Below the pieces are notes generated by a model that was not told the origin of the DNA, ran no database searches, and was given only the letters and a program-made list of their open reading frames with translations. This document shows, piece by piece, positions 2,917-36,044 of a DNA stretch of 41,266 nucleotides. The DNA is from a virus, in IMG/VR virus record IMGVR_UViG_3300032435_000024, positions 1 to 41,266 of that record. One strand, written 5' to 3'. Position numbers and translations under genes: made by a program. Within the stretch, counting starts at the first letter, position 1; the number at the start of each line of letters is the position of its first letter.

Positions 2917-3243
2917 TTAATCTTGTTTCGCCCGTGACGCAATTTCTGACTTCGCCGCCGCGTCCTGTATTTTCTTCGCAGCCAGCCGATCAACCCAGCG
3001 GTCGTATGTCTCCAGTGTCTGCTGCCGTTCCTTCTGATGCGACACGTCGAGCGACTGATAGCCGTCCTGAATCTGCTTCAAGTGTGAGGGAATCGCAATC
3101 GTCATACTGTAATGCCCGATCCATCCGATCGACGTGAGGATTACAATTAGCAGCACATTGTTAAACGGTTGCCCTGCGGCCCATTCGATGATGTGCGTTT
3201 TGATGTCCTTCGCCCTGTCGTCTTTGACTCTCTCGCCTGTCAT
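2917..3243 (-). CDS. Small protein with one membrane span (lysis region)
   Basis: A protein of 108 residues from ATG 3243, which overlaps the upstream stop as TAATG; an earlier in-frame start at 3282 is less likely. One hydrophobic segment (about residues 27-47, VLLIVILTSIGWIG) is followed by a charged, probably coiled-coil tail rich in Lys, Gln and Ala. This layout resembles spanin or Rz-like and holin-associated proteins. It is the last gene of the lysis region before the 2211-2870 gene. Confidence 0.65.
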   Translation of the reverse strand: MTGERVKDDRAKDIKTHIIEWAAGQPFNNVLLIVILTSIGWIGHYSMTIAIPSHLKQIQDGYQSLDVSHQKERQQTLETYDRWVDRLAAKKIQDAAAKSEIASRAKQD

Positions 3244-3566
3244 TATCGTGTGGCTCCTGCTTCCAAATGTAAATAATCCCACACCCAGCCAGCGACGCGG
3301 ATCATCAATGCGTACTGCGGAAACACCATTGCAAGCATTATCGCCAACGGGCCAACGATGCGGCGAATGGCCTCCGATCGTGACTGTGGCGGCTTGGTCG
3401 ACTCCATTACATCAAGCGACTTTTCCACCGTGCGGTCGACGGTGTTGCGATTCGCTTTTCTGGCCTTCGACTCGCCCTGAACTGAGACCGCCCACGCATT
3501 GCACGAGAATACGAAGCAAGCAGAGTCCCTAATGTTTTCGCGATCGATTTTCGTGAATACGGTCAT
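3243..3566 (-). CDS. Small membrane protein, holin-like candidate
   Basis: A protein of 107 residues. The N-terminal half is charged (many Arg, Lys, Glu). Residues about 70-95 (VGPLAIMLAMVFPQYALM and following) form one long or two short membrane segments, with a short tail outside. GAGGAAA precedes ATG 3566; this site lies inside the tiny gene that ends at 3567. The stop overlaps the next start as TAATG. A role in holin or spanin function is inferred from position and topology only. Confidence 0.65.
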   Translation of the reverse strand: MTVFTKIDRENIRDSACFVFSCNAWAVSVQGESKARKANRNTVDRTVEKSLDVMESTKPPQSRSEAIRRIVGPLAIMLAMVFPQYALMIRVAGWVWDYLHLEAGATR

Positions 3567-3653
3567 CTATCGTTTCCTCGGCGGCGCAGGACTCGCGGGT
3601 AAATGCGCTGGCTTCGGATGCGGTGGTGGCGGGTTTGGTTTCTTGGCACTCAT
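3567..3653 (-). CDS. 28-residue proline-rich basic microprotein
   Basis: A tiny open frame with Pro-rich composition (PNPPPPHPKP near the start, PAPPRKR at the end), 11 prolines and a strongly basic charge. Its ATG (3651-3653) overlaps the upstream stop as ATGA, and its stop TAG (3567-3569) directly touches the ATG of the next gene. This exact fit between neighbours argues for real translation, although no family is recognisable. It may instead be only a spacer that carries the ribosome-binding site of the next gene. Confidence 0.5.
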   Translation of the reverse strand: MSAKKPNPPPPHPKPAHLPASPAPPRKR

Positions 3654-3937
3654 TCGAATTCGATCCTAACATCCGCCCACAAGCCAACCCGGAATTCGAT
3701 CCGGTCTCTGTATTGCCTGATCTCGCTCACCGACGAATCAGGCCCAGGCGTTGACACACGCACTGCCTGAGGAAAGACCCACGCGATATAGTCCCCTTGC
3801 ACCACTGGAGTCGGCAGAGCACAGCTCCCGAGTCTGATGGCCATGCCGCCGACGGTTACTTTGCCGGCGTGAAACAGATCGAAAATTGTCGCGTTTGCCG
3901 ATGACTCAACGACCCGTGTGATTTGCAAGATGCTCAT
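3650..3937 (-). CDS. Hypothetical protein
   Basis: A protein of 95 residues from ATG 3937, which overlaps the stop of the thioredoxin-fold lipoprotein gene as ATGA. The longest frame would start at 4003, inside that gene, and is unlikely. The composition suggests a small beta-rich domain with alternating Val, Ile and charged residues, without membrane segments. No family is recognised. It sits inside the lysis operon. Confidence 0.65.
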   Translation of the reverse strand: MSILQITRVVESSANATIFDLFHAGKVTVGGMAIRLGSCALPTPVVQGDYIAWVFPQAVRVSTPGPDSSVSEIRQYRDRIEFRVGLWADVRIEFE

Positions 3938-4764
3938 CGGCGGAATCCAAACAGACCGCGGCGGCCAGTGCGAGGACTCGTTGGACACACTCCACCAGGG
4001 CATGACGAGCCACGATTTGTGGACACGCCCTGCGATGCAAGATTAACGCCATGCGAGTCCCGCAGATGATTGGCGAGAGACTGCTGCGTTGAGCCTGGCC
4101 AAGTCCAGTTCCCGCCACCGTGAAGCCTGTTATGCTGCGCCACGAGGCTCTCGTGGCGCACAATTTGTTTTGTGCTTTCCGCCTTCATCACAACCGGATT
4201 TGTGGCCGCTCGCAACCGCGACACAGTCGTATTATCAAATCCGTACATCACAGCCCAACCTGTCGGACTCGATGCCGTTGGATACCGAATCGCAGGGTAT
4301 GCACGCGGCCTCCAGTCCTCAGAATACTCGACAGCGAACCCGTCGAATTCTCCCGCGTCGACAGCTTCCTTCAGTCGATCGCATGGCGGGCACGCAAAAT
4401 CGGCCAGCGATACCAAAAGACGGACAGCCCCAGGCTCAGCGACGATCGTTGTCGCGATGTGCGAATCATTCGCGTTATTGCCTGGGGCTGTTCGAGACGC
4501 TGGATCACTCTCCTTTCCCTGCGGATCGGAACTGACCAAGGACGCCTTCAATGTTTCAACTGCATCGGCGATGCGTTTCTGTTGCGTTGCAAGCTCGCTG
4601 ATCGAGCCCTCGATGTTGGCGGTCTGGACGAGTATTTCGACCGATTGCGAATCGATCTTTGCCAAGTTGACGTCAAAGGTCATTGCTGGCAGAACGGACT
4701 TGCCGGCGTCTGTGCCTCGGCAGCCAATCGTTGCAATCAGTGAAATGAAAATCAGCGATCTCAT
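3934..4764 (-). CDS. Lipoprotein with thioredoxin-like domain (CPPC centre)
   Basis: A protein of 276 residues. The N-terminus has a short hydrophobic stretch ending in ATIGC (Cys 15), a plausible though imperfect lipobox, which would place the protein on the outside of a membrane. Residues about 40-75 look like a coiled coil. Residues about 105-200 match a thioredoxin fold: a beta strand, then DFACPPCDRL (CPPC 125-128), and a candidate cis-proline at 157 (AYPAI). The C-terminal part has an H-rich segment (LANHLRDSHG) and a tail containing CPGGVC. AGGA precedes ATG 4764. It lies directly behind the cysteine peptidase gene (14-base gap), so thiol control of that enzyme or disulfide formation in virion proteins are both conceivable. 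Confidence 0.75.
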   Translation of the reverse strand: MRSLIFISLIATIGCRGTDAGKSVLPAMTFDVNLAKIDSQSVEILVQTANIEGSISELATQQKRIADAVETLKASLVSSDPQGKESDPASRTAPGNNANDSHIATTIVAEPGAVRLLVSLADFACPPCDRLKEAVDAGEFDGFAVEYSEDWRPRAYPAIRYPTASSPTGWAVMYGFDNTTVSRLRAATNPVVMKAESTKQIVRHESLVAQHNRLHGGGNWTWPGSTQQSLANHLRDSHGVNLASQGVSTNRGSSCPGGVCPTSPRTGRRGLFGFRR

Positions 4765-4778
4765 AACCGAATATCCTA

Positions 4779-5606
4779 TCAGACAGACGTCAACCGAATC
4801 GCTAATCCGCCATTGCAGACCGCTTTACTGCCGCGCAGGACAGCGAGGCCATGACGACCGTAGTTTGGCCAACTGTTCAGAATCAACTGACCCCATGAGC
4901 CTCGCTCAATCCGCACCCAGCGAATTCCACATACACTGTGACGCCACCAATTATAATCACGAGGCCCTGGGATGTTGTTAAACCCACATGTTGCCACTTG
5001 TGCCATCGTCAGATTTTGGTCGTAGACCTGGCGAGTTAAATCAGTCCAGTCTTCCTCGATCTTATACTGCGCCATGGCTGCCCGTATCGCTGGCGTGTCA
5101 TGTCGGAGATTTCGCGATTGCAGCGGCCACTGGCCAGCAGCGTTGCCCTCAACTGCCATGCCGACTTCTCTCGCAAACTTAGCGCCGAGACCACACCATC
5201 CGCCTTCATTGGCCCCGCGCTTGATGATTGCCGCTCCAGCGTGCGGGTTGTATCGCACCATCGGCAGATTTCGCTTCAGCCGATCCATCATCATTGAGTG
5301 ACCAACCGAGTAGTTCCAGCAGTAGCCGTCGCCGTTTTGGTCGAGATTTTTAAAGGCTGGGCCACCGTTCGGGCCGCTCAGATAAATGTGCTCCAAGCTC
5401 GACTGTGTCGCTTCCTGCTCGTCAAATCTGGCATCCCATTCCGACTGCGGAATCAAAACCATTTCGGCCGGCGGCGCGAACATCGTTTCAGGGTCTACGG
5501 AATAGTCACGAGGCGTCATTCCGAAAATTGCACCATCTGGATGCGTCAGACTCGTGGCCGGTCCATCCGTTTCGATGATCGGGATGTTTTTGTAAGCGCT
5601 CGGCAT
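4779..5606 (-). CDS. Papain-like (C1 family) cysteine peptidase, lysin candidate
   Basis: A protein of 275 residues. The centre carries the full papain signature: Gln 90 six residues before Cys 96 in DQNGDGYCWNYS (the same spacing as Gln19/Cys25 of papain), His 223 in NWWRHSVCG, and Asn 244 in LILNSWPNYG. There is no signal peptide, so export would need a holin. The location between membrane proteins suggests a lytic or virion-associated peptidase acting on the host envelope, instead of the usual muramidase or amidase, none of which is visible. The start overlaps the previous stop (TAATG). The family call is strong; the lysis role is inferred. Confidence 0.8.
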   Translation of the reverse strand: MPSAYKNIPIIETDGPATSLTHPDGAIFGMTPRDYSVDPETMFAPPAEMVLIPQSEWDARFDEQEATQSSLEHIYLSGPNGGPAFKNLDQNGDGYCWNYSVGHSMMMDRLKRNLPMVRYNPHAGAAIIKRGANEGGWCGLGAKFAREVGMAVEGNAAGQWPLQSRNLRHDTPAIRAAMAQYKIEEDWTDLTRQVYDQNLTMAQVATCGFNNIPGPRDYNWWRHSVCGIRWVRIERGSWGQLILNSWPNYGRHGLAVLRGSKAVCNGGLAIRLTSV

Positions 5607-6055
5607 TACTTGCCCCCGTATTTTTTGAGTGTGGCCAGAGCATCATCAGCATTGAGTGGATACGGCAGCACTGTCGCCCGACTGTTCACTTCGATGACTA
5701 TGCACGGTACCGTCTGAATTTTCGGAAGCACGGCAAGCCACAGTGCCTTCATTGTCGGCTTTTCATTCGCCACGTTTTGCTGCATGTCGTATTCACGCCA
5801 GCCGGTCGTGTTGCCGTCGCCCGTCGTGTTGGCGTTCAGATAGTCCCGGATTGCTTTTGCCCCCGGAATTGCAGTCTGTGCGGCTGTTAGTGTTGATCCC
5901 GACTCTTTCACGAAGATGGCGCGGAAAGACGTGACTGGCTGCGGGTCGACTGGCTCGACTGGCGATGGTGGCACTGGCGCGACGCCGCCGCGCATCGGAA
6001 TCACCAATAATAACCCGCCGAGTATTGCCACGATTGCGGGAGCGTATCTTTTCAT
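5606..6055 (-). CDS. Exported or membrane-anchored protein, possibly thioredoxin-fold
   Basis: A protein of 149 residues. An N-terminal hydrophobic segment (residues about 5-20, after MKRY) acts as a signal or anchor and is followed by a Pro/Val linker (PVPPSPVEPVDPQPV). The rest has beta-alpha character. Near the end, VPCIVIEV followed by a helix (DDALATLKKYGGK) resembles the strand-helix end of thioredoxin-like domains, but no CxxC pair is present. GAGG precedes ATG 6055, which overlaps the previous stop as ATGA. Confidence 0.65.
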   Translation of the reverse strand: MKRYAPAIVAILGGLLLVIPMRGGVAPVPPSPVEPVDPQPVTSFRAIFVKESGSTLTAAQTAIPGAKAIRDYLNANTTGDGNTTGWREYDMQQNVANEKPTMKALWLAVLPKIQTVPCIVIEVNSRATVLPYPLNADDALATLKKYGGK

Positions 6056-6369
6056 ACGGTCCTCGCCTCCAACTCCGCAATCCGAGCCATGCGAGCCTGA
6101 TCACGAGTAGCCCCATTGCGAAGGCACGCAAGCACAGATTCTTCGGATGCGTCGCCCATCGCCGAATGAATATCGATCACCCATTCCTGAGCCCCGGGCG
6201 GAGGCGGCTCGTCAGCAGATCGATGTGACGGATCGTCGGGCTCGACAGGGCGGCCCGGATTTGGGGCCTTCACCGGACGCGATCGCCATGCCTGCACAGC
6301 GGCCCAGATTGCTCCGCCTGCAATTAGGATCCCGCCGAGAATCGGCTGCCAGTTTATCGAGACGCTCAT
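6052..6369 (-). CDS. Small single-span membrane protein
   Basis: A protein of 105 residues. It has one membrane segment at the N-terminus (about residues 9-26, ILGGILIAGGAIWAAV), then a Pro-rich hydrophilic linker and a soluble C-terminal helix pair. GGAGAT lies seven bases before ATG 6369, and the stop overlaps the next start as ATGA. It resembles small phage holin or spanin-like proteins, but no family can be named. Confidence 0.65.
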   Translation of the reverse strand: MSVSINWQPILGGILIAGGAIWAAVQAWRSRPVKAPNPGRPVEPDDPSHRSADEPPPPGAQEWVIDIHSAMGDASEESVLACLRNGATRDQARMARIAELEARTV

Positions 6370-6373
6370 CGGA

Positions 6374-6574
6374 TCAATCTCCGATCGGCAGAACGGTGAT
6401 CAATCTCAGGCCGATATTAAGCACGCTCAAACCGGCGACGAGGGCCGCGGCAGCCTTGGGGTATTCACTGACGATCGCCTGCCCTTGGAGCACCGTCAGC
6501 GTCGCGATGGCTGCTGTGAGGCTATTCAGCCAGATCGTTTTCGACATCCACCAGGCTTTTTGTTTTTGCGGCAT
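6374..6574 (-). CDS. Holin-like protein with two membrane segments
   Basis: A protein of 66 residues from ATG 6574 (GGTGAG six bases upstream); a GTG at 6592 would add six residues. After a basic start (QKQKAWWMSKTIWLN), two hydrophobic segments follow: about 16-32 and 40-60. The pattern SKTIW followed by membrane segments is common in small phage holins. This is the first gene of the lysis operon, and the peptidase is encoded three genes downstream. Confidence 0.6.
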   Translation of the reverse strand: MPQKQKAWWMSKTIWLNSLTAAIATLTVLQGQAIVSEYPKAAAALVAGLSVLNIGLRLITVLPIGD

Positions 6575-6647
6575 GGCATTCTCACCGAACACGGGGCGAA
6601 ATCGGAGGATTTATTTCGCGTGAGGATACCACTGCAGCTGCCGGGCG

Positions 6648-17032: not shown

Positions 17033-17224
17033 TTAGTCGCAATCCGAATCCGCCGATGCCCGATCCTGCAGAATCTGTTCGTGGATCTCCTCACGGTTGA
17101 CGGCGATATGCTTCGGGGCATCGATTCCTACGGACACTGTGTCGCCGCGAATCCCTATAATCGTGACGATAATGCCGTCCCCGATCATGATTTTCTGAAA
17201 CGCTTTTCGTCGTAGAACCAGCAT
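17033..17224 (-). CDS. csrA: Carbon storage regulator CsrA homologue
   Basis: A protein of 63 residues, full length. It starts MLVLRRKAFQKIMIGDGI, then GIRGDTVSVGIDAP and VNREEI, matching the CsrA pattern closely: the basic N-terminal RNA-binding strand, the GxxVxxGIxAP core and the VxRxEI helix start are all there. CsrA is a dimer that binds GGA-containing mRNA leaders and controls translation and stability. AAGGAGG lies directly upstream of the ATG. It could retune host metabolism or phage mRNAs; no promoter of its own is clear. Confidence 0.93.
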   Translation of the reverse strand: MLVLRRKAFQKIMIGDGIIVTIIGIRGDTVSVGIDAPKHIAVNREEIHEQILQDRASADSDCD

Positions 17225-19608: not shown

Positions 19609-20145
19609 TCACTGGTATGCAATTGCCTGAATATCTTCCCCGACTTGCTCGCATTCGATCCGCCCCAAGCCAGCAGACAGCATCGCTTTCGCGACCTCGT
19701 CGGCTGACAGATTGCGATAATATTCATCCTGCCTTAACTCATCGCCATCAATCGCGGAGTGCTCCGCTCGCCCTGGACCGGCACAAGTTACGATCATTCG
19801 ACCGCCTGCCCGGATCCATGTCGCGGCGGCTTCAATAATCTTTCGCCAATTCGCAGCATGCTCCAACACCTCACAGCAGATGACGAGGTCACAGAGTCCT
19901 GATGGCCGATAGCGTTCAGCATCGCAAATGATATCGACAGCAGGGCCGGCGTGAAGATCCAGCCCAATCCATGTGGCATTCGGCCAATATGCACGAGCGC
20001 TGCCGTTGATGTCGCGGCTGCCGATTTCAATCACTGATATAAAATCACTCGAACCCTGCGATCGCAGAAATTGTGAGCATTCAGGATGCACTGGTCTGAC
20101 CCCTCGAAAAATCAGCGCATGCTTTCGCGTCCGCACATTCACCAT
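19609..20145 (-). CDS. Class I SAM-dependent methyltransferase
   Basis: A protein of 178 residues from ATG 20145. The Rossmann motifs are clear: VIEIGSRDINGSA (motif I), WIGLDLHAG, VDIICDAERY, LCDLVICCEVLEHAANW and IRAGGRMIVTCAG. This is the small-molecule or glycan type (Methyltransf_11-like), not a DNA methylase: no DPPY or NPPY is present. Together with the oxygenase and glycosyltransferase it forms a modification cassette. It overlaps the oxygenase gene by about 65 bases. Confidence 0.82.
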   Translation of the reverse strand: MVNVRTRKHALIFRGVRPVHPECSQFLRSQGSSDFISVIEIGSRDINGSARAYWPNATWIGLDLHAGPAVDIICDAERYRPSGLCDLVICCEVLEHAANWRKIIEAAATWIRAGGRMIVTCAGPGRAEHSAIDGDELRQDEYYRNLSADEVAKAMLSAGLGRIECEQVGEDIQAIAYQ

Positions 20146-20665
20146 GCTCCCAGGCAAACAGGGCCAGCGTTTTGCGGTACGGTGATTGGTTACTTGTTCG
20201 CAGTACCTCGTGCCATTCTTGCTTGGTTTCAAAAATCACTGTCACATTTGAGATCGGACTGAGACAACAGCCTTGCCTCTCCAGTACAAGTTGCCCGCCA
20301 TTTGACTCGCCAATCGTGGCGACAAACAACACGATTGAATGAGTTCTTCGCCACGGTCGAATAGGATGGCGCTCTGCATCCAGATGCCTTGCGAGGAATC
20401 CGCCAGGTGGCATCATGTGCATGCCAGCCGCGTGCAGGTCGTAGTCAATAAACGAGTCCCCGATATGTGGAATCACCGCAATCGCCAAGGCATCCAGTGC
20501 CGCAATGCAAGCCGGTGGAATTCGTGACCTATCCATCGATCCGAATTTATTTCCAGTCGCCCCATTGTATCGGTGCCAATACGGCCAGCCGGGATCAGGC
20601 CATGCAGCCTCTGCTGTACGACACAATGCGGCAGGGATCATGTTTTCAATAATCTGAACTGACAC
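20081..20665 (-). CDS. 2-oxoglutarate/Fe(II)-dependent oxygenase, prolyl hydroxylase-like
   Basis: A protein of 194 residues from GTG 20665, which has a perfect AGGAGG six bases upstream; the longer frame to 20746 is rejected. The catalytic triad is complete: His 94 and Asp 96 (ARHLDAE), His 152 (EWHEVLR), and Arg 164 (SPYRKTLALF) for 2-oxoglutarate. GGQLVLE and VTVIFETKQEWHEVL give the double-stranded beta-helix core. It probably hydroxylates a protein or sugar. The neighbours suggest the target is the phage tail or its glycans. It overlaps the glycosyltransferase gene by 20 bases. Confidence 0.82.
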   Translation of the reverse strand: MSVQIIENMIPAALCRTAEAAWPDPGWPYWHRYNGATGNKFGSMDRSRIPPACIAALDALAIAVIPHIGDSFIDYDLHAAGMHMMPPGGFLARHLDAERHPIRPWRRTHSIVLFVATIGESNGGQLVLERQGCCLSPISNVTVIFETKQEWHEVLRTSNQSPYRKTLALFAWEHGECADAKACADFSRGQTSAS

Positions 20666-22100
20666 GTAACGCCTCCTGATATTCCGCCCACCGTGGCCAC
20701 ACCGTCGACTCCCAATATGGCCGATCATACATTCGCTTTGAATCATTCAGAAACAGACACGCGGTTTCTCGCGGATCGCAGAGACGGCCGGGCCATTTTT
20801 CCGTCCCGCAAAACGCCTGCTCTACTGACCGCCAATTTCGTTTTCCGATTTCCGCCAATCGCCACCAAAAAAAAGTTCCTGAATATGCCCAATTGTGATC
20901 TGTGCCAAATAAACCGTATTCGCGAAACGATCCCGCCATTAGAGACGATCTCAAAGCGTCGTAGACAGTCGGCCAATCGTCCAAACAACTCTCGTACATC
21001 AACCGCGCCCAATCGTGCGTTTGCGATTGATTAGGCCTGTACTGCCCTTTCGCGTGAGCGGAAAACACGACCTCGTTTTCTGCGGCAGATCCCGGTGACA
21101 GTAACTCCAACATCGGAATCCACGTCACGACCTCTCGCAGTTTCGACTTATTGCCACGAATCACATGATGGTCGAATGTCAAGCCGAGCGACTGCGCAAA
21201 CTCAATCACCTCATCTGCCGGTGCTGATGTTTTATCTTCCGCAATGGCAATAATTCGCTTGCCATTAAATAGCGACCATCTTTTTGCTACTTGCTGTAAA
21301 TTCCATTGCCACGAATCCCCATGACTGGCCGCCCACACATGGTAGGTCAGGTGCCGGACGGATGAAACAAACGGCCCGTGCTCGATTCGCGGGCCGTCAG
21401 CTTCTGATCGCCAGCCGGTGTAGGGTTTCCCACTTCGATTTTTGCCTCCGCCTCTGCTGACGATCCTGCTTCGGTCGACCGATGTCTTGCGAGTCGGCTG
21501 CTGGTGCCGCGACGTTCCTGTTCTTATCCGCGATTGCCTGGGCGGCTGGATCCGCACGTCCTCAATCGCCTGAGTCAGTAGCCAGTTCGCTCCGATCCCC
21601 AGGGCTGCGTCTGGCACGATTGCGTCCATCACCGCCAACATCACCGGGAGCACGACACTGATCTCCGCTGCTCGTGTCCTCAGAGCTGCAATGAGCATGT
21701 CGCGATTGCCGACCAGTTTGCCGACGATCTCCTCACGTCGCGACTCACAGCCAGCGATGCCCCAGCGGTCCATTTCAGTCGCGAGCGTCTGGCATCCGCA
21801 GGTTGGTTGCTCGGCCTTGATGGCGAGTAGTCCTTCGATGCGGGATTTGAGTGCGGTGCCAACGGCTTCGCGTGATGCGTGTTGCGTGGTGGCGTGTCGT
21901 GATGCCCTTTGAGGATGCCGAATTTCGGTATCGGTTTTTCTCTCTAGCTTATAGAAGGAATCCAGAGACTCCACCGCTCCGGATTGGCATCTGTGAAAAT
22001 GCACCGCCGCGACGTCTCGCTGTCGCCTTTCACAGAAGCCAGCCATTAAGCATGTGCATTTCTTTTGAATGTCAGTCACATCTTGCATTTGTGTGATCAT
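20646..22100 (-). CDS. Glycosyltransferase-like protein with Cys-rich N-terminal modules
   Basis: A protein of 484 residues from ATG 22100, overlapping the previous stop as ATGA. Residues about 1-45 hold a Cys/His module (KCTCLMAGFCERRQ, then FHRC) that may bind zinc. About 85-150 is a second module (CGCQTLATEMDRWGIAGCE) often seen on its own in phage and planctomycete proteins. The C-terminal ~260 residues resemble glycosyltransferases: LTYHVWAASHGDSWQWNLQQ, RIIAIAED, VVFSAHAKGQ (compare YLHTKG) and GTFFWWRLAEIG. No DxD can be assigned with certainty. It likely decorates a virion or host surface sugar. Confidence 0.65.
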   Translation of the reverse strand: MITQMQDVTDIQKKCTCLMAGFCERRQRDVAAVHFHRCQSGAVESLDSFYKLERKTDTEIRHPQRASRHATTQHASREAVGTALKSRIEGLLAIKAEQPTCGCQTLATEMDRWGIAGCESRREEIVGKLVGNRDMLIAALRTRAAEISVVLPVMLAVMDAIVPDAALGIGANWLLTQAIEDVRIQPPRQSRIRTGTSRHQQPTRKTSVDRSRIVSRGGGKNRSGKPYTGWRSEADGPRIEHGPFVSSVRHLTYHVWAASHGDSWQWNLQQVAKRWSLFNGKRIIAIAEDKTSAPADEVIEFAQSLGLTFDHHVIRGNKSKLREVVTWIPMLELLSPGSAAENEVVFSAHAKGQYRPNQSQTHDWARLMYESCLDDWPTVYDALRSSLMAGSFREYGLFGTDHNWAYSGTFFWWRLAEIGKRNWRSVEQAFCGTEKWPGRLCDPRETACLFLNDSKRMYDRPYWESTVWPRWAEYQEALRVSSDY

Positions 22101-34714: not shown

Positions 34715-34989
34715 CGGAAGTTACTCCCGACGCCAAGGAATCGCACACCGCCGACTCCGCCGCTTGTGGTCGCTGCGTTGGCCGCGACGAAATCCTGCCC
34801 ACGCTTTAGCATGTCCTGGACGTACGATTTGCCGATCGACAGCGAGCTGCTTTGATTACTGGCCGACTCAGCGCGAAGGATCAACCATCGCTTTGCAGCA
34901 GTGATGAACAGACGCGCACGAGCGACGCTGGCGACTTCTTCAAAGTCGGCGTACTCGATCAAATCTGTTTCGATGTCGGCAATGACCAT
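34711..34989 (-). CDS. Small head-tail connector candidate (gpW position)
   Basis: A protein of 92 residues, helical, with ADFEEVASVARARLFITAAKRWLILR and a Gly-rich end (GGVGGVRFLGVG). It lies between the terminase-side genes and the portal, the place of lambda W, and overlaps the portal start as ATGA. The gpW assignment rests on size and position. A strong terminator (35053-35087) lies upstream, so it must have its own promoter or rely on read-through. Confidence 0.55.
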   Translation of the reverse strand: MVIADIETDLIEYADFEEVASVARARLFITAAKRWLILRAESASNQSSSLSIGKSYVQDMLKRGQDFVAANAATTSGGVGGVRFLGVGSNFR

Positions 34990-35052
34990 GCCGCAGAAAG
35001 TAGCGGAACATGGTGTCTAGATGGTGAGAATCCGGAAATCGGATAGGGCACA

Positions 35053-35087
35053 AGAAAAAAGGCAGGACGGAAAACCGCCCTGCCTTC
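35053..35087 (-). terminator. Strong rho-independent terminator
   Basis: On the minus strand GGCAGGGCGG (35085-35076) pairs with CCGTCCTGCC (35070-35061), loop TTTT, with one G-T pair, followed by TTTTTT (35060-35055). It lies after the pentamer array and about 65 bases before the connector gene. It is the cleanest terminator in the window and would separate packaging genes from head genes. No promoter was found with confidence between it and ATG 34989. Confidence 0.85.
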
Positions 35088-35141
35088 ACCTTGCCTCGCC
35101 AAGCCACGCCGTGCCCCGCCTTGCCTTGCCAAGCCCCGCCT

Positions 35142-35180
35142 TTATTCGCGGAACCACCACCATGAGCCATTGGCTCCCTT
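35142..35180. repeat. Hairpin box 1 (GAGCCA type)
   Basis: TTATTCGCGGAACCACCACCA then ATGAGCCATTGGCTCCC; GAGCCA / TGGCTC (35164-35176) is a six-pair hairpin with a single T between the arms. The same box recurs at 35869 and 35957 with one or two changes. Confidence 0.85.
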
Positions 35181-35243
35181 GCCCTGCCATGCCGCGCCAT
35201 GCCCGGCCTTGCCAAGCCCCGCCATGCCACGCCATGCCACGCC

Positions 35244-35280
35244 ACTATTCGCGGAACCACCACCAACTCTAAAAGAGTCC
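35244..35280. repeat. Hairpin box 2 (ACTCT type)
   Basis: TATTCGCGGAACCACCACCA, then ACTCT AAA AGAGT (35266-35278), a five-pair hairpin, then CC. The left part matches box 1, but the hairpin sequence is different. It is repeated at 36045-36081. Confidence 0.85.
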
Positions 35281-35339
35281 TTGCCCTGCCGAGCCTTGCC
35301 ACGCCCGGCCTTGCCGCGCCCAGCCCGGCCCCGCCTTAA

Positions 35340-35795
35340 CTATTTTTTTCGCTCCACAAACGTCATCACCGGCGTCGTGCGTTCCGTGGGTGTCGCTTCG
35401 ATCGTCTCCCGCTTGCGAAGCAATGCAATCTTAAATGATTGATTGCTGACGTTCTTCGCGTACAGGTCTCGCTGCTCTGCACTGAGCTTGCCGACGTTGA
35501 CTGCCATCAGTCTGCGATGTGCCCGACGCGCCATGCGTAGCCCGACGTCGAACCGCTTCGGATTGTACTCTGCGGCCTCGGCATCCGTCAGGATGTGCAG
35601 TTCGCTTTTCACGATCCGCACCGTGATGTCACGCCCGTGTTGCTGCTTCAGTTGCTTCTGGACAAGGCCGAGCAGTTGCAGCAAAGCGAACGCGAATCCT
35701 TTCGGATCGCTGGTCTCCGGGAATCCGATTATGTCTTCGCAGAACGCCTGCGGAATTCCGTCACCCAGTTTCAATTTGTCTGTTTTGATTTGCAC
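35340..35795 (-). CDS. Hypothetical protein flanked by pentamer arrays
   Basis: A protein of 151 residues with a GTG start at 35795 and AGGAGAT upstream. It is helical in the N-terminal half (FAFALLQLLGLVQKQLKQQHG) and basic in the C-terminal half (GLRMARRAHRRLMAVNVG). No family is recognised. It is bracketed by two arrays of CCNNG pentamers, whose ends near its stop and beyond its start look alike. It may have moved with the arrays as a cassette. It sits between packaging and head genes. Confidence 0.7.
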   Translation of the reverse strand: MQIKTDKLKLGDGIPQAFCEDIIGFPETSDPKGFAFALLQLLGLVQKQLKQQHGRDITVRIVKSELHILTDAEAAEYNPKRFDVGLRMARRAHRRLMAVNVGKLSAEQRDLYAKNVSNQSFKIALLRKRETIEATPTERTTPVMTFVERKK

Positions 35796-35868
35796 TTCTA
35801 TCTCCTGAAAAGAATCCCTGCCTCGCCGTGCCTAGCCGAGCCATGCCTGGCCAAGCCCTGCCTAGCCC

Positions 35869-35905
35869 TTATTCGCGGATACGCCACCATGAGCCACTGG
35901 CTCCC
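35869..35905. repeat. Hairpin box 3 (GAGCCA type)
   Basis: TTATTCGCGGATACGCCACC then ATGAGCCACTGGCTCCC. GAGCCA / TGGCTC (35891-35903) pairs perfectly, with loop base C instead of T. TTCGCGGATAC replaces TTCGCGGAACC of boxes 1, 2 and 5. Confidence 0.85.
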
Positions 35906-35956
35906 TTGCCCTGCTGCGCCTTGCCGGGCCCCGCCTAGCCGCGCCCTGCCCGGCCC

Positions 35957-35993
35957 TTATTCGCGGATACGCCACCATGAGCCATTGGCTCCC
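35957..35993. repeat. Hairpin box 4 (GAGCCA type)
   Basis: Same as box 3 with one base different in the loop (T). Hairpin arms at 35979-35991. Confidence 0.85.
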
Positions 35994-36044
35994 TTGCCTT
36001 GCCGCGCCTGGCCTTACCGCGCCACGCCTTGCCACGCCATGCCG

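Follow-up and report, generated by a model that had tools for sequence, protein, structure and literature searches.

A papain-type peptidase and its co-varying exported partner in a candidate lysis cassette of a tailed phage

How might a tailed phage burst its host from a lysis region in which a papain-type peptidase lies between membrane proteins and no muramidase, amidase or transglycosylase is visible? The question is raised by the window, by which we mean the whole stretch of DNA analysed, a virus record of 41,266 bases whose recognisable genes are those for a major head protein, a portal, a terminase, a tape-measure protein and a DnaB-type helicase. A sequence-only reading of the window had proposed a redox switch, with the peptidase held inactive until its cysteine is freed outside the membrane by thiol partners. 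We conclude, at a probability of a little under 0.6, that the locus is a tailed-phage lysis cassette, probably of a planctomycete host, in which a xylellain-like papain-family peptidase would replace the endolysin. The genes concerned are as follows.

6374-6592, minus strand: holin-like small membrane protein, 72 residues, at least one transmembrane segment; named from the neighbours of its family in other phages
6052-6369, minus strand: small single-transmembrane protein, 105 residues, between the holin-like gene and the partner
5606-6055, minus strand: exported partner, 149 residues, with an N-terminal hydrophobic anchor, a proline-rich linker and an outer domain; assigned by its type-specific domain
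4779-5606, minus strand: papain-type (C1-like) cysteine peptidase, 275 residues; assigned by catalytic residues, fold and profile match
3934-4764, minus strand: exported lipobox-like protein, 276 residues, with a CPPC thioredoxin-like domain and the C-terminal tail SSCPGGVCP...LFGFRR
3650-4003, minus strand: small soluble protein with a conserved C-terminal part, RQYRDRIEF; start codon uncertain
3243-3566, minus strand: small membrane protein with REEAIR..IVG...FPQY... conserved in relatives; possible lysis accessory
2917-3282, minus strand: small membrane protein whose C-terminal tail is charged

The partner, peptidase and CPPC genes form the minus-strand trio that the sequence-only reading had singled out, and the stop codon of the partner gene overlaps the start of the peptidase gene. 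Relatives of the 3650-4003 protein adjoin the exported protein, directly downstream, in other loci. Elsewhere in the window, a small ORF at 17033-17224 resembles the CsrA-family match among the window's proteins (E 9.5e-20), a phage-encoded CsrA regulator; 20081-20746 encodes a probable 2OG-Fe(II) oxygenase (Pfam match, ORF assigned by eye) and adjoins a methyltransferase-like gene; and 34940-36035, between the terminase and portal genes, consists of GC-rich repeats with Ala/Arg/Pro-rich low-complexity ORFs and is likely non-coding.

The peptidase and its fold

The complete papain-type triad noticed from the sequence was borne out by comparison. Cys96 lies within DQNGDGYCWNYS, His223 within WWRHSV and Asn244 within LILNSW, and Gln90 stands 6 residues ahead of the catalytic cysteine, in papain-like spacing. 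IMG/VR holds relatives of this type-1 enzyme at 81 to 35% identity, and in all 20 that were aligned, down to about 35%, Gln90 and the triad are unchanged; none has lost it. Cys96 is also the sole strictly conserved cysteine in this alignment. A profile of 6 relatives matched cathepsin K in PDB at E 0.0026, the two catalytic blocks lining up, and an AlphaFold2 model made with 20 homologues (pLDDT 86.4, pTM 0.88) adopts a papain fold. The invariant residues, the profile match and the modelled fold together argue that the triad is not due to chance, and we conclude that 4779-5606 encodes a papain-fold cysteine peptidase, for which catalytic activity is predicted. Direct searches were less informative: the type-1 sequence gave no Pfam match above the cut-off, Peptidase_C1 included, the trio alone yielded nothing usable from Pfam or PHROGs, and relatives looked for in phage and plasmid collections were not found. 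The peptidase sequence has neither an export signal nor a transmembrane segment.

Among solved structures, xylellain matches the model best (Z 19.5, 2.5 A over 210 residues). Procathepsins follow at Z about 17-18, and the N-terminal segment of the model is aligned with their propeptides; many of these alignments begin at model residue 1, implying that the segment sits where propeptides sit. Latency through the enzyme's own propeptide-like segment is therefore another possible form of control, as far as the model goes. Viral C1A proteins are present in BFVD, and the closest viral folds found by Foldseek are two uncultured Caudovirales proteins annotated 'Peptidase C1A, papain C-terminal', A0A6J7XQB9 and A0A6J5QDM8 (E 4e-8 and 6e-8), which have a similar fold at an identity of just 13-18%. 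Xylellain-type genes have already been reported in Caudoviricetes (PMC10380794).

One slot, several peptidase types and a matched partner

The sequence-only reading had suggested looking for the same trio in other phages, and related loci were indeed found, both in phages and in planctomycete prophages. Among phages located by means of the helicase or holin-like gene, papain-type proteins of other types occupy the peptidase slot: type 2 in L136 (Pfam Peptidase_C1, E 7e-7) and L135 (E 7e-9), type 3 in L138 and L145, and type 4 in L056 (the locus numbers are our own). By hhalign, type 1 aligns with type 2 at E 7e-7 and type 2 with type 3 at E 7e-15; type 3 was matched neither by Pfam nor, with a two-sequence profile, in PDB, and it is placed in the papain group because of its hhalign match with type 2. 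Type 4, a single sequence, aligns weakly (E 0.046). This comparison indicates that at least four divergent papain-type peptidases exchange at one position in sister phages. The exchange appears to be recent, since a downstream gene for 139 residues is 94.5-97.1% identical in DNA when type-1, type-2 and type-3 carriers are compared.

Other elements were observed at the same place. Inteins of 337 residues are inserted exactly before the catalytic cysteine in L008 (3915-5753) and L026 (4795-6858), the active-site cysteine being the +1 extein residue, while L009, a near-identical relative of an intein-bearing locus, has none. The two inteins are 64% identical and their exteins 38-52%, a pattern as for a homing element; the idea of two independent insertions was rejected because the inteins resemble each other more than the exteins do. 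HNH-type endonuclease genes, one of them confirmed by Pfam and the rest alike by eye, stand between partner and peptidase at L008:3367-3912, L023:7115-7582 and L135:6736-7377 and in L218.

The exported partner changes with the peptidase. Its outer domain matched the domain model E1 in 22/22 type-1 loci, E2 in 7 of the 8 type-2 loci and E3 in 21 of the 27 type-3 loci scored; in the remaining six type-3 loci E3 is visible by eye. At no scored locus did a partner carry the outer domain of another type, and it is this absence of cross-matches that is informative, the three models having been built from these same loci. The remainder of the partner is less particular: types 1 to 3 have the N-terminal anchor module in common, and types 1 and 3 also share an export module of Ig-like appearance. 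In a comparison of one type-2 with one type-3 phage, the partner gene is 93.6% identical over its first 68 codons and unrelated beyond them, which places a swap junction inside the gene. The type pairing holds even where an HNH-type gene splits the partner from the peptidase (L008, L023 and L218-L220). These data suggest that the outer domain and the peptidase work together, the co-variation being the strongest evidence for it; the partner may activate, position or inhibit the enzyme. The peptidase's strongest conserved link is with this co-varying exported partner, which the sequence-only reading missed.

That reading had taken the upstream protein for a possible thioredoxin fold, a suggestion that found no confirmation. 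CxxC occurs in 0/17 homologues of the partner, and the 5606-6055 protein gave no PDB profile match and no hhalign match to the thioredoxins of related loci; its candidacy as a thioredoxin was set aside as unproven. The comparison thus supports one putative thioredoxin-like neighbour of the peptidase, not two.

The downstream thioredoxin-like protein

The other proposed thiol protein fared better. The CPPC lipoprotein described directly after the peptidase does have a lipobox-like signal and the CPPC motif, and its CPPC domain can be aligned to WCGPC-bearing thioredoxin domains encoded at related loci (hhalign E 2e-8); a relative of the gene in L014 matches Pfam Thioredoxin at E 3e-8. Searching with the CPPC gene alone returned no relatives. 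Counted by eye, an exported CxxC thioredoxin directly follows the papain-type gene in 24/56 loci and in all four types (7/22 of type 1, 1/8 of type 2, 15/25 of type 3 and 1/1 of type 4), or in 25 loci if L020, where it lies further downstream, is included. All five loci on planctomycete chromosomes (L020, L031, L259, L260 and L261) have one. In many other loci a similar exported downstream protein lacks CxxC and has a C-terminal SCPxGxCP tail. This tail, with a basic stretch rich in LF and FR, recurs in the window's 3934-4764 protein, in L013, L015, L025, L136 and L138 and in others, and could serve in anchoring or sorting. L031:345-1478, which lies in a prophage region of a planctomycete, encodes a fusion of a trypsin-like domain with a WCGPC thioredoxin-like domain; a papain-type gene stands immediately upstream of it.

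By gene content, the link between papain-type peptidase and thioredoxin is recurrent yet apparently dispensable. The proposed redox switch, in which lysis is controlled by outer thioredoxin-like proteins that reduce the catalytic cysteine of an otherwise inactive peptidase, therefore stands only in part. The exported thioredoxin recurs across four types and in every chromosomal locus, once fused to a trypsin-like domain; however, it is absent from over half of the loci, the upstream partner has no CxxC, and Cys96, the sole strictly conserved cysteine of the peptidase, lacks a conserved counterpart with which to form an internal disulfide. We consider the switch quite unlikely. That the thioredoxin can be dispensed with argues against a universal switch; more in keeping with it is a helper role, in which the thioredoxin reduces either the enzyme or the enzyme's substrate.

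The same two neighbours could be read as a diverged two-component spanin pair whose thiols form inter-protein disulfides. Upstream, an anchored protein bears an exported domain; downstream, the protein has a lipobox-like signal, a terminal cysteine pair and an N-terminal segment that looks coiled-coil by eye. Cysteines, found in 507/528 two-component spanins (PMC6139136), would offer another reason for the thiols. On the other side, the outer domain of the partner co-varies with the peptidase, the downstream exported protein is common to phages with different peptidase types, and the passages of PMC6139136 covered here do not describe CxxC thioredoxin domains as a spanin feature. We regard a spanin pair as somewhat unlikely.

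Lysis, other roles and comparison with known systems

The case for a lysis region, as first proposed from the sequence, is strengthened by comparison. The 6374-6592 gene encodes a small membrane protein within the putative cassette, as expected of a holin, and lesion formation is predicted for it. Its family spans about 100 phage loci, and the 86 neighbours of its distant members include Amidase_2 (4), Peptidase_M15_4 (3) and one each of Amidase_3, GH108, VanY and Peptidase_C1, the last at L207:2924-3736 (by motif). The peptidase slot itself lies between the holin-like gene and the exported, often lipobox-bearing, gene. Pfam scans covering almost the full protein sets of the window and two other carriers found no known cell-wall hydrolase family, in agreement with what had been seen by eye in the window. 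Amidase_2, Phage_lysozyme, M15_4, SLT, CHAP and M23 are likewise absent from all 32 carrier records, and at least one is present in 11/25 unrelated control phage records (Fisher p 2.4e-5), a p-value that serves only as a guide, since the controls were drawn by shared helicase and not host-matched and the carriers, some incomplete, are related to each other and do not amount to 32 independent cases. Together with the exchange of papain types, the position and the missing hydrolase families make it probable that the peptidase occupies the endolysin's place and acts with its cognate exported partner. It may work in an endolysin-like way, though it has no known murein-hydrolase domain and is hence not classed as an endolysin. 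Papain-family enzymes are not known to act as murein hydrolases, and planctomycetes do possess peptidoglycan; both points count against the lysis-cassette reading.

An alternative is that the peptidase serves in the virion or in entry, or trims envelope proteins, and that the true endolysin is encoded elsewhere. Large parts of each proteome carry no annotation and could hide such an endolysin, a possibility that weighs against the lysis-cassette reading as well. Yet the slot lies between holin-like and exported genes rather than among virion genes, papain types exchange there, and the holin-like family stands beside true cell-wall hydrolases in other phages. This alternative seems to us unlikely.

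The chromosomal loci bear on both the host and the function. An initial genome scan using the peptidase found none, and one using the partner domain found a planctomycete MAG. Among 392 Planctomycetota genomes, 2 matched the type-1 profile and 3 clearly matched the type-3 profile. In one type-1 genome the locus lies within a phage-like gene region on a 3-Mb contig, and a second phage-like region of the same genome has a type-2-like enzyme with a thioredoxin. Judged from these genomes, a planctomycete is the likely host of the window's phage. Two further loci, L260 and L261 (in genomes G322 and G284), share one gene order: a lipoprotein-like gene, a papain-type peptidase and an exported CVPC thioredoxin. 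Housekeeping genes surround the G322 cluster, and reading 34 kb by eye revealed no recognisable phage gene, implying that the module need not serve lysis; this, too, counts against the lysis-cassette reading. A cellular use of the papain-thioredoxin cluster seems to exist or to have existed in G322, possibly after domestication.

Taken further, these loci could mean that papain, partner and thioredoxin form a mobile system of periplasmic proteolysis for envelope maintenance, superinfection exclusion or defence. The housekeeping setting in G322, the same order in G284 and a trypsin-thioredoxin fusion in G195 are in its favour; against it, the module is rare in Planctomycetota and yet keeps one fixed position in many phages. 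We think such a system improbable.

We therefore return to the lysis cassette, for which the following course of events can be proposed. The peptidase would build up in the cytoplasm, possibly latent beneath its own N-terminal segment, until the holin-like protein opens the inner membrane and lets it cross. Outside, it would meet its matched partner, be positioned or activated by it, and burst the cell by cleaving peptide bonds of the wall or of envelope proteins. Planctomycetes have peptidoglycan (PMC4432640), and murein peptides and envelope proteins are thus both possible targets. The CPPC protein, with its thioredoxin domain, would most likely keep the catalytic cysteine reduced or open disulfide-linked envelope proteins; at other loci, the role of the downstream exported protein may be closer to that of an outer-membrane spanin. 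A more specific form of this proposal, which we put forward tentatively as a possibility, is proteinase-based lysis by tailed phages of planctomycetes, in which a papain-family endopeptidase takes the place of a classical murein hydrolase and is switched on by docking to its cognate exported partner, aided by thioredoxin, the pair being exchanged as a unit.

Papain-type genes of phages are already known; their placement in a lysis cassette, the co-varying partner and the thioredoxin appear to be undescribed. The literature searched, mostly outside subscription papers, contained no C1A enzyme in a lysis cassette, with a co-varying partner or with a thioredoxin, and no account of host lysis by planctomycete phages. 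If the peptidase is a true lysis enzyme, the papain type would add a peptidase family to the endolysin repertoire and would indicate that, within an unusual envelope, the target is a protein or peptide. The several types of enzyme-partner pair would then be a test set for how such an enzyme is restrained until lysis and how it is turned on, a question that the strict co-variation makes testable by mixing and matching pairs.

Several known systems resemble parts of this locus. With phage endolysin cassettes it shares a holin-like neighbour, an enzyme without an export signal and the exchange of enzyme types at one locus; unlike the usual cassette, its enzyme is of the papain family with no known murein-hydrolase domain, and the co-varying exported partner is an addition. 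Rz/Rz1 two-component spanins likewise combine, within a lysis cassette, an anchored protein with an exported domain, a lipoprotein-like gene and thiols, whereas here the partner co-varies with the peptidase and a thioredoxin domain is present. Xylellain-type short bacterial C1A peptidases have the same fold, Gln-Cys-His-Asn spacing and N-terminal segment, but the window's type-1 sequences fall below Pfam Peptidase_C1 detection, and the phage enzyme stands at a fixed site next to a holin-like gene, together with an exported partner specific to its type and an exported thioredoxin. Finally, in the staphopain-staphostatin pair the partner is also specific to its own papain-type protease; here the arrangement is reversed, with the partner exported and anchored and the protease without an export signal.
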